Below, piece after piece: positions 27,929 to 34,678 of a stretch of DNA of 35,169 bases (the stretch's first letter is position 1; each line of letters starts with the position of its first letter). The position numbers and the translations under genes are program-made. The notes under the pieces are model-generated. The model worked only from the letters and a program-made list of their open reading frames with translations. It did not search any database and had not been told where the DNA came from. Source of the DNA: a virus; IMG/VR virus record IMGVR_UViG_3300020195_000098, positions 1 to 35,169 of that record. One strand, given 5' to 3'.

Positions 27929-29128
27929 TTAGAGACGCCTGATCGTGGGCGTCAAACGTGGCACGCTGAATTTGCTCCGCGCCAGGGCGAGGGCGCACAC
28001 GGCGTCATCGTGCAATCCCTGCGGCGCGCTGTACCGGACGCCCGTTCGCGTGTATTCAAACTCGAACTGTTCAAGTTCCATGACGATGATTCCTTCGGGA
28101 TAGCTGATCTCTTGTTGCTGAATGGCGATAGCAAGCCCCTCCATCAACTGTTGCTTACTCGCCTGCGAGAATTTGAACCCCTCGAAATTGGATTGCCCTT
28201 GTTGCAAGGCTTCAAGGATCGGATCGCCTACGCCAGTGGAATCGACAAGAGCGGGAGTTGGGCCGACGATCTGCTTGATGGTCGAAATCGTATCGAGCCA
28301 CGGTTTTTGGAATCGCTCAAGGCGACATGCCCGACCATTGGCGTCCAGGCCGATGCAGACCGTCCAGTCGTAACTCTTGGCAAGATCGATGCCCCAGCAC
28401 ACGGGCGCGGCGGCTGATAGGGGCGCAATGCAGTTGCGTATCGCGAGAAGGCCGAATGGGTTTCCGCCGTCGTCCGATGGCTCTGCGAGGTATAGCTCGC
28501 GGAATACCTGATCGGGTAGCGTTCGTTTGGCGTCTTCGACTTCATCCGCCGATAGTATGCCCGCCTGTACGGCGTCATATGCGAGGAGTTTGGCGTAAGC
28601 CATTCCTTTCTCACCGGACTCGGCGCGGCGGGCGAGTTGGTAAAACCAATTCTGCCGTCCTTTGACGTTGCCGATGATGCGTATCGGTCCCTGCGTAGCG
28701 GTGAGGGTGGTGCGCACGGCGTACCATGCGTCTTCCTTGGTACGGCTGGCCTCGTCGATCACGGCGGCGTGTACGTCATCGCCGTAGAGCGAATCGGGTT
28801 TGTCCGCGCCCTTGAACCAGATACACGCGCCGTTGGCAAGCGTGATGAAGCAATCAGAATCGTTGGCGGTATAAACCTCGCGCGGTAGGCCGCGTTTAAG
28901 GCGACGGTAAGCGATCTTCGCGACTGCAAACGTGGGCGCGACCCACCAGTAGTTCCATCCGGGCTTGCCCTGCATGGCCATTTCCGCAAGCCAAATAATG
29001 CAGCCAACGGTTTTGCCGGTCTTGGTGCTTGCTTCGATTAAGGCGTAGCGTGAGGGATTGAAAATGGCCTGGCGTTGCTTCTCGTAAACCCACGGGCGGG
29101 TGTATTTAAGCTCTATCGTTTCCTGCAT
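27929..29128 (-). CDS. Terminase large subunit
   Basis: 399 aa. ATPase: Walker A ASTKTGKT at residues 33-40, Walker B AAVIDEAS with D125 and catalytic E126, and coupling motif IIGNVKG near 151-157. Nuclease: GIDLAKSYDW (D248), ALVDSTGVGD (D296), and GLHDDAVCAL (D374/D375) form the RNase H-like acidic triad. The protein cuts concatemers and pumps DNA into the prohead via the portal. It overlaps the small TerS-like gene by 23 nt at its start. Length and spacing are normal for a compact HK97-group terminase. Confidence 0.95.
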   Translation of the reverse strand: MQETIELKYTRPWVYEKQRQAIFNPSRYALIEASTKTGKTVGCIIWLAEMAMQGKPGWNYWWVAPTFAVAKIAYRRLKRGLPREVYTANDSDCFITLANGACIWFKGADKPDSLYGDDVHAAVIDEASRTKEDAWYAVRTTLTATQGPIRIIGNVKGRQNWFYQLARRAESGEKGMAYAKLLAYDAVQAGILSADEVEDAKRTLPDQVFRELYLAEPSDDGGNPFGLLAIRNCIAPLSAAAPVCWGIDLAKSYDWTVCIGLDANGRACRLERFQKPWLDTISTIKQIVGPTPALVDSTGVGDPILEALQQGQSNFEGFKFSQASKQQLMEGLAIAIQQQEISYPEGIIVMELEQFEFEYTRTGVRYSAPQGLHDDAVCALALARSKFSVPRLTPTIRRL

Positions 29129-29372
29129 CGCCGATATTGATGCTGAAGGCTATAGGCGCGCCTTCAATTCCAGAATGCTCGGCGTGAATTTCTTGTGGGA
29201 GTATTCTTGACCAGAGCTTGTAGAACTCGGTTGGGTTACTACGCGCCCAACTGGTCAACTCAACAACGCCGCCAAGTTTATCGAACGCAGCGATGAGAGC
29301 GGACTTAACCGCGTGAGTCGTCTTGTTGGGCGTGCCTTTTGTTCGTCCGCCAGTTTTTTTTCCTTTTGCCAT
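29106..29372 (-). CDS. Small terminase-like DNA-binding protein upstream of TerL
   Basis: 88 aa. A basic N-terminus (KGKKTGGRTKGTPNKTTHAV) is followed by helices (KSALIAAFDKLGGVVELTSW) and the motif NPTEFYKLWSRILPQEI. This motif and layout recur in small phage proteins directly upstream of TerL that serve as, or replace, the terminase small subunit. As the next gene upstream has only the N-terminal TerS segment, this may be the functional TerS. It overlaps the TerL start by 23 nt, indicating coupled translation. Confidence 0.65.
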   Translation of the reverse strand: MAKGKKTGGRTKGTPNKTTHAVKSALIAAFDKLGGVVELTSWARSNPTEFYKLWSRILPQEIHAEHSGIEGAPIAFSINIGDAGNDRA

Positions 29373-29382
29373 GTATTTTCGC

Positions 29383-29976
29383 CTAGTTTAGACCACGAGC
29401 GGTTAGTCCGCGCAGATATTGGCCAGAAGCGATGTAGCTGTATTCGCCTATGATGTCCCAATACCACTTGATATGGTTCGGTTCGCGGGGCTTCTCATTA
29501 AGCCATTGGCAGAAGGGCTTTATTCTTTTGAGTGTTAACTGGGCCTCGACTCGATCTCGCTCATGTTTAGTGAATTGGCCGGGCGCGAGGTTGGTAAGAC
29601 GTGATAGCCCAATGGAGGCGATGGCTACGCGTTCGATGGCGTAGGCATCATTCTCAGTTAAGCCTTGGGCGAAGCAACGTGGGATTATCGCGCCGCCCGC
29701 TTTAATGATCTCGCCAATGCGCTGGGTCTTCTTGCAATTGATAGTATGCAGCGTAATCCACTCGCGTATGTGTCGAGCAAACCGCTGGCGTTTGCCTTTG
29801 CCGATATAGAATATCTCGCCGTTACGACTGTCAGTAAGAAAGTAAACGTAGTATTTCCTCGGTTTGTCACAATGGGGCAGACTATACCCGGCGCGTATTG
29901 CGGCCTGGGTCGCATTGAGGTCAATGAGATACTCTGCGACGAAGCGTTCCTGTTTAGGCGTAAGTTCCTTGACCAT
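29383..29976 (-). CDS. TerS N-terminal DNA-binding segment fused to GIY-YIG nuclease
   Basis: 197 aa. Residues 4-32 (LTPKQERFVAEYLIDLNATQ, AAIRAGYS) are the unmistakable N-terminal helix-turn-helix of Terminase_2-type small subunits. At residue 33, where TerS proteins normally continue with a second helix (often KTA...), the sequence changes to a GIY-YIG nuclease: YYVYFLTDS, FYIGKGKRQRFARH (Gly59, Arg63/65, His69), catalytic-type Glu115 in AYAIERVAI, and Asn129 in LTNLAPG. It resembles LEM-3/ANKLE1-type GIY-YIG domains. The C-terminal 60 aa (WYWDIIGEYSYIASG) are not recognised. A homing endonuclease insertion in terS, or a site-specific nickase targeted by the TerS domain, are the main options. 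AAGG lies just before ATG 29976. Confidence 0.8.
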   Translation of the reverse strand: MVKELTPKQERFVAEYLIDLNATQAAIRAGYSLPHCDKPRKYYVYFLTDSRNGEIFYIGKGKRQRFARHIREWITLHTINCKKTQRIGEIIKAGGAIIPRCFAQGLTENDAYAIERVAIASIGLSRLTNLAPGQFTKHERDRVEAQLTLKRIKPFCQWLNEKPREPNHIKWYWDIIGEYSYIASGQYLRGLTARGLN

Positions 29977-30016: not shown

Positions 30017-30106
30017 CATTCGTCAACGGAGGAGTTTTGTGTCGAGCCGCGTTTTCCCAAACTCTAGGCGTGCGAAAACATGGCTCAATCTCGAATATAG
30101 CTCAGG

Positions 30107-30637
30107 TCATGAAGCATGGCAAGCGTTTTCTTTGGCTTTATTGGCGGCGTCATGAATCGCATGTAGCTCGTCCTCGATCTGCGGAATTAGGCGGAGAAGA
30201 AAATCGAATGCGGACAGGTACTTGAATCGCGCGGCATACACGCCGTCTCGGTTTGATGGCGTCACGTCGTCCGATATAGCGCGCTCGATGGCGTCCTGAT
30301 GGTAACGATCAAGGCGACGCAGCAACATGCGGTACGCGCTTTCATCGAATGATCCGTTCTCGCTTTGGCCAAGCAGCTCGATCAGATAAATCTTTCTCGG
30401 CTCGGCGAAGAATGGTTTGCGGAAGGCGTGCTGCCATAAGGCATACGTCGCGGCGGCGGAGAGGTGGCCGTAATCGAGGGCGCGGATTTCGATAAGGTAA
30501 GCGAGGATTGTGCGGTCTGTGACATTCGCCTGGTTGATGTATCCGGCTGCGTCGCGGGAAACGTCAAGATCGCCTTTGCGTAAACGCCAGTTACTAATCA
30601 AGTTTTCGCGTTTAGTCGGATAGGCGTCCTGGTGCAT
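30107..30637 (-). CDS. Hypothetical protein between early and late regions
   Basis: 176 aa, mostly alpha-helical and charged: RTILAYLIEIRALDYGHLSA, AATYALWQHAFRKPFFAEPR, DESAYRMLLRRLDRYHQD. No nuclease or HTH signature is evident; helical bundle proteins here can be late-gene regulators or antiterminators, but I have no sequence support for that. It is the last gene before the terminator at 29979-30016 and starts after a 75-nt gap with a weak promoter-like element, so it may be a separately controlled gene. Confidence 0.6.
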   Translation of the reverse strand: MHQDAYPTKRENLISNWRLRKGDLDVSRDAAGYINQANVTDRTILAYLIEIRALDYGHLSAAATYALWQHAFRKPFFAEPRKIYLIELLGQSENGSFDESAYRMLLRRLDRYHQDAIERAISDDVTPSNRDGVYAARFKYLSAFDFLLRLIPQIEDELHAIHDAANKAKENACHAS

Positions 30638-31838: not shown

Positions 31839-32009
31839 AAGCCTCCTGAAGCTCGCCTGATTGAGAGTCGGGGCAGGCGGTCAGGAAACCGCTTTTCGAC
31901 TACAAGGAGCTACCTTGGGTCTAGCCCCGCTCATGATTCACCCAGCGGTGTGGGTGAATATCTGCATAGCGCGATTGGGACGCTCAGGCAAGGGATTTTT
32001 ACGATGATT
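31839..32009 (-). other. Intergenic region with perfect hairpin, upstream of DUF1376
   Basis: 171 nt with no convincing gene. It holds a perfect 8-bp hairpin ATTCACCC/GGGTGAAT (31936-31943, 31952-31959; 8-nt loop) and a smaller one GCGGT/ACCGC (31877-31881, 31888-31892). Neither is followed by a U-run on the minus strand, so these may be operator or mRNA-stability elements, or part of a replication origin next to the initiator gene. Confidence 0.4.
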
Positions 32010-32246: not shown

Positions 32247-32560
32247 ACGTTATCCCCGGCGGGAACGGTAAAGACCCCCTGCTCCCCAGCGTCGCATATG
32301 ATCGCTATTCGCAACGGATGGCATAAAACTTTTGTCAAATCAGGAGCGTCATATTCCTTAAAATCTCGCAATTCCGCATCTGACGTGAGGCTACCTATCT
32401 TTCCCGCCAATATAGGCAAAACTCCCCACTTCCAACCGATGATAGGATTTACCCACATATATTTCCCTCTATCGGGGTGGTTTTGAAAAAACGATTTCGC
32501 TCCCTCGAAGCATTTAGGGCAATGAATCCATTCTGTAATTAAAGTGCCGCACTCGCTCAT
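32243..32560 (-). CDS. Small early protein, function unknown
   Basis: 105 aa, Cys-containing (HCPKCFEGAKSFF near residues 13-25, a CxxC that could bind Zn) and hydrophobic in the middle (MWVNPIIGWKWGVLPILAGK). No family recognised. ATGA overlaps with both neighbours. Confidence 0.6.
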   Translation of the reverse strand: MSECGTLITEWIHCPKCFEGAKSFFQNHPDRGKYMWVNPIIGWKWGVLPILAGKIGSLTSDAELRDFKEYDAPDLTKVLCHPLRIAIICDAGEQGVFTVPAGDNV

Positions 32561-32877
32561 ACGTTATCCTTGGAGGTTGGATTGCTGGGCGGCTTGCCAT
32601 GCTTCGCGCATAAGGTCTTTTCGGTCCGTAACGGTATCGTGGTAATAGCCGTTAGTTTCGTACCACTCATCAAAGCTCTCCATCGGGCGTTCCATGCGTT
32701 AATTGCGGCGGTTTCTGGATACCATTGATTCGTACGGGCCGCGCATTGCGGATTCTCACAGAGGACGGAGAACCAGGGGTCGGGCTGTCCATGCAGTTCA
32801 GCCGACATATCTTCAATGTGGGCTGGCGAGTCGCAGAATGGACACGGCTTGAGATTATTCTGTTCTTTTGCCGTCAT
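32557..32877 (-). CDS. Lar-like zinc-ribbon protein (restriction alleviation type)
   Basis: 106 aa from the ATG chosen at 32877 (MTAKEQNN), which overlaps the preceding stop (ATGA). LKPCPFCDSPAHIED, WFSVLCENPQCAARTNQWYP and AAINAWNARW match the Lar-type small zinc-ribbon: two Cys pairs (CPFC and CENPQC), then W and AINAWNxR. Lar of Rac prophage alleviates type I restriction; related phage genes are often annotated that way without test. The C-terminal 50 aa are not family-typical. Confidence 0.75.
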   Translation of the reverse strand: MTAKEQNNLKPCPFCDSPAHIEDMSAELHGQPDPWFSVLCENPQCAARTNQWYPETAAINAWNARWRALMSGTKLTAITTIPLRTEKTLCAKHGKPPSNPTSKDNV

Positions 32878-33095
32878 CTTGGACTCCAAAATTTACGATT
32901 AGTGATCTCGCCGAAAACTCTTTGCTGATAGTGAATCCAGCACGGCATGATGCCCACGCTATCGGGATATTTACTGTGGATTTTTGCATAGCAATAAAGC
33001 TCCGTAGCCTCATCGGGGGATTCAGTCACAGCCTGCGCCTTGTCGTCAGGAAAGCATTGCGGACGATCAGCGGCTAAGATCGAATAGCCCCTCAT
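32874..33095 (-). CDS. Small early protein, function unknown
   Basis: 73 aa: RPQCFPDDKAQAVTESPDEA and TELYCYAKIHSKYPDSVGIM, with aromatic C-terminus RKFWSPR. ATG 33095 follows the previous stop closely; the longer frame to 33245 overlaps other genes and is a shadow. It might be an inhibitor or moron-type protein, but nothing is recognised. Confidence 0.5.
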   Translation of the reverse strand: MRGYSILAADRPQCFPDDKAQAVTESPDEATELYCYAKIHSKYPDSVGIMPCWIHYQQRVFGEITNRKFWSPR

Positions 33096-33605: not shown

Positions 33606-33784
33606 GCGTCGATGGCCTTCATAAGTTTCACCTTGGTCGGCCATCGCGGGCAGCTCTTGCCATTTTCCCAACGCCAGAGTGTGCATTTGTGTTTGCCTGC
33701 GGCTTTGCATATCTGCGCGTCCGTCATCTTACGTTTGCGCGCAAGAGCAAGTAATTCCGTGATCGTAAATGTTTTTTGCTTCAT
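33602..33784 (-). CDS. Small helix-turn-helix regulator (Cro/CI-like)
   Basis: 60 aa. LLALARKRKMTDAQICKAAG, then KHKCTLWRWENGK (residues 11-43) is a helix-turn-helix of the Cro/XRE type with the usual recognition helix ending in W-WENG. It sits first in the leftward operon and faces the rightward ERF operon across 87 nt, the position of a switch or early repressor. Start ATG 33784 was preferred over 33802 because AAGAAG lies ~10 nt upstream. Confidence 0.75.
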   Translation of the reverse strand: MKQKTFTITELLALARKRKMTDAQICKAAGKHKCTLWRWENGKSCPRWPTKVKLMKAIDA

Positions 33785-33871
33785 AGCATTTTCTTCTTGC
33801 ATTGTTTTGCATCTGTGGTAGAGCTATGGCACATGCAAGTTAAAACGTCAACCAGTTTTGTGGAGCAATAC
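33785..33871. promoter_or_regulatory. Divergent control region with TTGCAT repeats
   Basis: 87 nt between the regulator and the ERF gene. TTGCAT occurs twice in direct orientation (33797-33802 and 33807-33812), exactly one helical turn apart, and inverted as ATGCAA at 33833-33838. These could be operator half-sites for the adjacent HTH protein. I see no strong promoter hexamers; the early promoters of both directions must be near here. Confidence 0.5.
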
Positions 33872-34678
33872 ATGGGAGCCGATGGCAAGGAAGTGGATAC
33901 GAAGGTCACGCCGAAAAATGTGTATCAGGCGATTGCACTTGTGCAGGCCGCATTGGCGAAGGTGGGCATAGGTAAAGATAAGAAAAACGAACAACAGAAT
34001 TATAAGTTCCGTGGCATTGACGATGTATATAACGCTTTAGCCCCGCTTCTTGCCGAAAACGGTCTCTGCGTCATGCCGCGAGTATTGAGCCGTCACGTTA
34101 ATGAGCGAGTGACGATGAAAAGCGATGGCAATGGTGGTAAGCGCGAAAGCGTGTTGTTCTATGTCGTCATTGACGTGGAATACGACTTTGTGCTTGCTGC
34201 GGAACCAACGAGTCGTCATACGATTCGCGTATGTGGAGAAGCGATGGATTCGGGCGACAAGGCAACAAATAAAGCGATGTCAGCCGCTTATAAATATGCC
34301 TGCCTACAAACATTTTGCATTCCAACGGAGGGCGATAACGATGCGGACGGAACCACTCATGGCGAAATCGCGCCAAAGGCGGCAAGCGTCTTCGAGTCGG
34401 CTGACTTGCGGGAAATGTTCGTAAAGAATTGGCTTTCGTCAATTGAGAAAGCCGGGTCAACCACTACGCTCAAAGACTTGAAAGCTCTCGACCTGGCCAA
34501 GCTCAATGCGATGAAGGGAAGCGCGAACGAAGATGACGTAAGCGCGTTCACTCGTATCGTGGCCGAATTCAATCCGAAGTTCACGTCGCTAAAACAGAAA
34601 GAAGTAGCCGAAAAGAACAAGACGGTTGATGCGCTTGTGAAAAGCGATCCGCTGAAAGATGACGAAATTCCATTTTAA
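33872..34678 (+). CDS. erf: ERF family single-strand annealing protein
   Basis: 268 aa from ATG 33872 (GGAG six bases upstream); ATG 33833 is a possible longer start. The core NYKFRGIDDVYNALAPLLAE, followed by NGLCVMPR, is the ERF signature; the body continues through FYVVIDVEYDFV, SGDKATNKAMSAAYKYACLQ and TFCIPTEGDNDAD. ERF proteins anneal single-stranded DNA in phage recombination and end-processing, complementing the nearby nuclease. The C-terminus ends in acidic DDEIPF, a typical SSB-like acidic tip. Confidence 0.9.
   Translation: MGADGKEVDTKVTPKNVYQAIALVQAALAKVGIGKDKKNEQQNYKFRGIDDVYNALAPLLAENGLCVMPRVLSRHVNERVTMKSDGNGGKRESVLFYVVIDVEYDFVLAAEPTSRHTIRVCGEAMDSGDKATNKAMSAAYKYACLQTFCIPTEGDNDADGTTHGEIAPKAASVFESADLREMFVKNWLSSIEKAGSTTTLKDLKALDLAKLNAMKGSANEDDVSAFTRIVAEFNPKFTSLKQKEVAEKNKTVDALVKSDPLKDDEIPF

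Follow-up and report, generated by a model that had tools for sequence, protein, structure and literature searches.

The window analysed here is an entire virus record of 35,169 nucleotides (IMG/VR IMGVR_UViG_3300020195_000098). On its minus strand lie, in order, P0003, a fusion gene (P0001), P0002, the large terminase gene (TerL), and genes for a portal, a MuF-like head protein, a head protease and the capsid. The open reading frame originally predicted at 29383-29976 was recovered, and its strand, which that prediction did not give, is minus. The features of this neighbourhood are:

30107-30637, minus strand: P0003, the upstream neighbour, encoding a hypothetical protein, 176 aa
29990-30021, minus strand: terminator-like hairpin of 14 pairs with a T-rich tail, whose end lies a few bases short of the fusion start codon
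29383-29976, minus strand: P0001, the fusion gene (small-terminase 5' segment, GIY-YIG nuclease and short helical C-terminal region), 197 aa
29881-29976, minus strand: residues 1-32 of P0001, helices 1-2 of a Terminase_2 DNA-binding domain, without recognition helix 3
29854-29880, minus strand: residues 33-41, a linker of variable sequence (alignment of relatives) between the small-terminase (TerS) segment and the nuclease
29563-29853, minus strand: residues 42-138, GIY-YIG nuclease domain with an extra tyrosine (YxY...YIG), PD-T4-3/CMoRE type
29386-29562, minus strand: residues 139-197, helical C-terminal region (alignments and AlphaFold)
29106-29372, minus strand: P0002, putative small terminase of family phrog_11043 (position and family context), 88 aa
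27929-29128, minus strand: TerL (Pfam Terminase_6N, E 1.1e-5; phrog_2, E 1.6e-31)

The 120-nt stretch upstream of the fusion gene folds strongly (-47.6 kcal/mol), and with the hairpin standing before its start codon, the gene could be expressed only through read-through or antitermination. No such hairpin recurs upstream of the fusion in the other loci, the strong terminator-like one being present in the window only. A second inverted repeat lies just upstream of the hairpin, at about 30035-30095. Elsewhere the window holds a match to the Rfam int-alpA RNA (31855-31931, minus strand; 38.8 bits versus a gathering score of 35.8), a gene for a Lar-like restriction alleviation protein (32560-32889, minus strand) and one for an ERF-family recombinase (33776-34675, plus strand).

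The fusion of a TerS segment to a GIY-YIG nuclease is real. Profile matches and the alignment of relatives place the join directly after AGYS, as first proposed. Independent contigs show this join again, which excludes chance or misassembly, including the assembly error that the original prediction had named as its possible undoing. An AlphaFold model of P0001, built on an alignment of 17 relatives, had a mean pLDDT of 85. A Pfam search found no intein domain in P0001, and Rfam scans gave no group I intron, a structure initially considered, around the fusion.

The N-terminal segment had been described as a TerS helix-turn-helix (HTH) start, which holds for its origin and fails for its completeness. 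Pfam Terminase_2 (PF03592) matches residues 5-32 (E 7.5e-12; model positions 1-28 of 141), PHROG TerS family 51 matches residues 2-32 (E 1.2e-13), and the solved TerS structures 2cmp, 4zc3 and 3zqp align to residues 4-33. AlphaFold predicts helices at 7-19 and 22-29 with a pLDDT of ~98. The DNA-binding domain of SF6 TerS is a four-helix bundle with an HTH formed by helices 2 and 3, and contacts DNA through the N-terminal arm, the turn and helix 3 (PMC4737164). Since residues 1-32 hold only helices 1 and 2, "DNA-binding segment" is an overstatement, and because the fused piece stops after helix 2, the case for it as a guide to the packaging site is weakened. P0001 likewise lacks the oligomerisation domain and C-terminal part of a complete Terminase_2 small subunit, and the rest of such a protein is, as had been claimed, absent downstream, where P0002 has no Pfam match.

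The remainder of P0001 is a catalytically intact-looking nuclease, judged from its sequence. Pfam LEM-3-like GIY-YIG (PF22945) matches residues 54-138 (E 3.4e-16), the CMoRE nuclease 9u75 (PDB) aligns to residues 42-131, and PADLOC PD-T4-3 matches with E 2.7e-12 over model positions 15-109 of 256 only. In the alignment, Y43, Y45, Y57, G59, R65, H69, E115 and N129 are invariant in the 17 relatives, in keeping with the intact motifs noted at the outset. Credible Foldseek matches in the PDB were solely GIY-YIG nucleases (9u75, T4 EndoII and I-TevI), none of them joining TerS and GIY-YIG; Pfam and PHROGs gave GIY-YIG only, with no HNH motif in P0001. The C-terminal region carries an L..I.PF..W motif common to the terminase-adjacent family in alignments, and AlphaFold places helices at 137-151, 155-160 and 168-192 (pLDDT mostly 67-78, lower toward the end). 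No NUMOD-type or similar C-terminal DNA-binding domain was found in P0001.

P0002 begins 10 nt past the fusion stop codon. It is probably the functional small terminase, of another family, a call made by position and family context rather than by a named model: its relatives adjoin TerL directly upstream in at least 49 of 80 loci. A fusion-type nuclease occurs in none of these 80 loci with a P0002-type TerS.

A single-protein scan of IMG/VR with P0001 returned two distant GIY-YIG genes only. The fusions surfaced in pattern scans of IMG/VR for AGY followed at 55-85 nt by FY(I/V)GKG, with three alanine codons; the nuclease-part alignment was also scanned against viral and genome contigs. After duplicate removal, the fusion was present in 16 distinct loci, mostly metagenomic contigs, and always joined at the AGY codon, followed by a linker of 6-11 aa and then YYVY. 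Its TerS start is canonical in 10 loci (the window, L119, L099, L114, L116, L107, L105, L109, L106 and L103), decayed yet recognisable and of the same length in six (L112, L113, L115, L124, L184 and L203), and absent in two terminase-adjacent relatives (L120 and P0005 of Rhizobium phage RHph_Y1_10). Proteins of this terminase-adjacent family total about 160-220 aa.

The full-length homologue search suggested by the original prediction thus found the fusion recurring beside TerL. The order fusion, separate small TerS candidate, TerL is present in 15 of the 16 loci, with TerL only partly visible in L105 and L106; the exception, L203, has no TerL downstream. Start and stop codons of these three genes often overlap or nearly abut, and the TerLs form at least five groups of weak mutual similarity at most. 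The partner TerS is a Terminase_2 protein of non-canonical type in L114, L109, L112, L124 and L119 and belongs to phrog_309/1482 in L103, L107 and L097, while partners of the window's kind are small KTGGR..GTxNK proteins. Among the loci examined, no partner TerS gene has the canonical motif, but that motif may be confined to a minority of TerS in any case.

Beyond the phage loci, bacterial relatives of the nuclease are longer, at about 230-260 aa, and the two tested with PADLOC belong to PD-T4-3/CMoRE; many such PD-T4-3/CMoRE-like GIY-YIG genes occur in bacterial genomes of many phyla (L160-L231). No TerL was detected near the bacterial relatives with a TerL query set that also missed the TerL of L112, and two phylum-wide sets (~790 bacterial genomes) held no fusion beyond the seed genome. 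Two candidates that appeared fusion-like in tblastn, MT835625 and MT835521 (L002 and L004), proved to be ordinary full-length TerS genes, and jumbo-phage relatives (Serratia phage Totoro was checked) have neither a TerS segment nor annotated terminase neighbours. We found no description of a TerS-GIY-YIG fusion in the open-licence literature; GIY-YIG genes close to prophage terminase genes have been on record since 2006 (PMC1564403), where we saw no fusion of this kind.

We read P0001, with a probability of about 0.62, as a phage-borne homing-type GIY-YIG nuclease sitting inside a small-terminase gene. The nuclease would have inserted in frame right after the conserved NATQAAIRAGY helix codons of terS, so that the terS start signals would be used and the first ~30 TerS residues kept, and packaging would have passed to the second, non-homologous TerS gene immediately downstream. 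In phages that co-infect the cell, the nuclease would cut a terS that lacks the insert, or DNA close to it, and recombinational repair would copy its gene into the cut allele. The region upstream of the terminase is a known hot spot for HEG-like nucleases (PMC10448857).

A sign of such an insertion comes from L114, which lies in a provirus or phage. Its TerL shares 75% amino-acid identity with the TerL of Mannheimia phage 535AP2 and its kin. In these phages terS is an intact Terminase_2 gene lying directly upstream of TerL, and over its first 136 bp the L114 fusion matches nt 1-130 of the 535AP2 terS at 79% identity (E 2e-29), including an unusual prefix (MAKKGEGKSASEGVGKPK against MTKKGEVKATSKGVGK) found in no other fusion. 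Homology ends at the AGY codon, beyond which the Mannheimia terS continues into helix 3 and L114 into the nuclease, and resumes in TerL; part of the upstream region matches too. By this sequence comparison, L114 and 535AP2 are an occupied and an empty site, and the expectation that a related phage without the GIY-YIG part would have an intact TerS is realised in them. They are the sole such pair, none having been found for the window itself.

Base composition and substitution rates also bear on the origin of the join. In L116, L114, L107 and L105 the TerS segment has a third-position GC content (GC3) close to that of TerL, and the nuclease part is AT-rich (p 0.001-0.04); L107 and L105 are related to each other. 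In L116 the values are 54% for the segment and 22% for the nuclease part (p 0.001). There is no such step in the window, L119, L109, L106 or L103, nor, on average, in 12 ordinary terS genes. Canonical N-termini evolve slowly, like TerS (dN 0.06-0.26 versus 0.29-0.78 for the GIY-YIG part), whereas decayed N-termini outpace their nuclease (dN 0.34-0.57 versus 0.14-0.21). Between N-termini, third codon positions are near saturation and the protein is conserved, as expected from a separate terS origin in each lineage and also from an old fusion under strong selection.

Signs of mobility are present as well. A block covering nt 82-1111 is 100% identical between L099 and L119; it runs from the TerS-like start of the fusion to near the end of the partner TerS, and the adjoining TerL half differs by roughly 10-45%; as the L099 contig starts just upstream of the block, its left boundary is visible over 81 nt only. 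Homology between L105 and L107 stops at the fusion start, and TerL relatives at 57-75% identity lack the fusion gene. One of them, L269 (TerL 75% identical to that of L116), has no fusion and no canonical terS and carries the same partner TerS; in the L116 lineage the partner therefore arrived separately from the nuclease, and the comparison fits a simple gene gain upstream of TerS. In a GIY-YIG tree of about 100 columns, 13 of 15 members group together (93/88), and a single clade, as from one ancestral fusion, is not rejected (p-AU 0.52). The tree thus allows either repeated insertion or one old fusion with later exchange of the N-terminus.

Homing is therefore supported, as far as sequence comparison goes, by the fixed join across lineages, the empty site, the GC3 steps, the decaying N-termini, the L099/L119 block and the patchy presence of the gene. 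Weighing against it are the lone empty-site pair, the L116/L269 comparison, the members without a GC3 step, the p-AU value and the lack of a TerL in L203. Of the two original options, that of a homing endonuclease that hijacked terS is the supported one: an empty allele is seen for the relative L114 only, the insertion point is the same in all canonical members, and all but one of the 16 loci have a second TerS candidate directly downstream.

A packaging function could explain the strict location and the close linkage to TerS just as well. Here the GIY-YIG protein would be a domesticated nuclease that cuts or nicks the packaging site with TerS and TerL, in the manner of HK97 gp74, and the TerS helices would dock it. 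This alternative is possible, if unlikely. The conserved gene order across at least five dissimilar TerL groups, the usually overlapping or near-abutting codons and the invariance of all catalytic residues are what it would predict, and gp74, encoded at the same position in HK97, promotes cleavage at cos (PMC9410871). However, the recognition helix is missing, the N-terminus is decayed in six members and absent from L120 and the RHph_Y1_10 protein beside TerL, and neither the 80 loci with a P0002-type TerS nor close TerL relatives have such a gene. The narrower proposal of a nickase guided by its TerS module agrees with the recurrence next to TerL and is weakened by the missing recognition helix, the decayed or absent N-termini and the close TerL relatives that do without the gene; it is less likely than either homing or a dedicated packaging nuclease. 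Homing and packaging roles may also hold at once (PMC10448857; PMC9410871).

For the TerS segment itself, the decayed starts in some members suggest no essential targeting role. A conserved N-terminus selected as a targeting module is disfavoured by the members whose start has decayed, by the GC3 steps and by the comparison of L114 with the Mannheimia phages. The remnant was probably left behind by the insertion as a by-product and erodes over time, and the residues kept would supply a start and perhaps assist folding.

A more elaborate form of selfishness, cleave-and-rescue, is also conceivable, though we hold it only tentatively. The nuclease would destroy terS genes bearing NATQAAIRAGY, and the cassette would bring a target-less, non-homologous replacement TerS, leaving the invaded phage dependent on the cassette. 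The absence of the canonical motif from partner TerS genes and the L099/L119 block, which spans the fusion and nearly all of TerS, are consistent with this, but in the L116 lineage the partner is shared with the fusion-less L269. Separately, P22-pbi (L260) contains an unannotated, decayed relic of a Terminase_2 terS start (40750-40833) upstream of gene 3, a different TerS; the relic occurs in P22 and related Salmonella phages and is possibly a parallel case of terS replacement.

We consider it improbable that the protein is an anti-competitor nuclease which took its DNA-recognition part from the TerS of a rival and cleaves the packaging sites of other phages or satellites. Odn of phage ICP1, in which a GIY-YIG-family nuclease is joined to a parasite's origin-binding domain, proves that such chimeras exist (PMC8263062), and canonical TerS sequence is retained in 10 loci; yet Odn keeps nearly the whole RepA_N domain whereas the fusion has lost the DNA-contacting helix 3, and the L114 segment matches its own phage lineage and not a rival's. 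That one ancient fusion has been inherited and exchanged whole, its N-terminus retained because it serves the nuclease fold structurally, is very improbable given the local terS prefix in L114, the within-gene GC3 step in four members and the nucleases without a TerS segment (L120 and P0005), despite the unrejected single clade and the confidently predicted helices 1-2.

Whether small nuclease genes beside terminases are selfish elements or packaging parts is disputed, the case of HK97 gp74 standing against the HEG hot-spot view (PMC10448857). The fixed terS join, an empty-site phage (Mannheimia 535AP2) and many members make both views directly testable, and the family represents one route by which phages may exchange the small terminase, which decides which DNA is packaged. 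Other arrangements are seen in this region: in Rhizobium phage RHph_Y1_10 (L003, 3998-5464) two different GIY-YIG genes flank a small gene directly upstream of TerL, and in L115 (6777-9128) TerL contains an intein (Hint/intein splicing domain), placing two different parasitic-looking elements in the terminase genes of one phage.

Several known systems resemble the fusion in part. Terminase_2 small terminases (SF6/SPP1 G1P) share their first 28 family positions with it, but it has no helix 3, oligomerisation core or C-terminal part. PD-T4-3/CMoRE (9u75) is the closest solved GIY-YIG relative and has the same GIYxY-YIG motif (PMC12923530), with Y43-x-Y45...Y57 of the fusion spaced as Y17/Y19/Y31; its C-terminal modification-sensing domain is unmatched in P0001, and it is a defence nuclease whereas the fusion lies in a phage packaging module and not in a defence locus. 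HK97 gp74-type HNH nucleases are likewise encoded by a small gene beside the terminase genes of a packaging operon, as in 15 of 16 fusion loci. However, gp74 is an HNH protein with no TerS-derived part known and stimulates cos cleavage in vitro, while the fusion is a GIY-YIG protein.

Free-standing GIY-YIG homing endonucleases (T4 Seg, ICP1 T5orf172) also lie next to or inside an essential phage gene and are patchily distributed, and the terminase neighbourhood is common among them (PMC10448857). The fusion differs from these in being in frame with the 5' third of terS and followed by a separate small terminase gene, without a detected NUMOD-type C-terminal domain. Finally, Odn (Gp88) similarly joins a GIY-YIG-family nuclease to an N-terminal segment from a DNA-binding protein (PMC8263062). 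The N-terminus of Odn matches 93% of the RepA_N domain and binds its target, whereas P0001 retains two of four helices rather than an intact borrowed domain; Odn is nevertheless the nearest proven chimera to the fusion.
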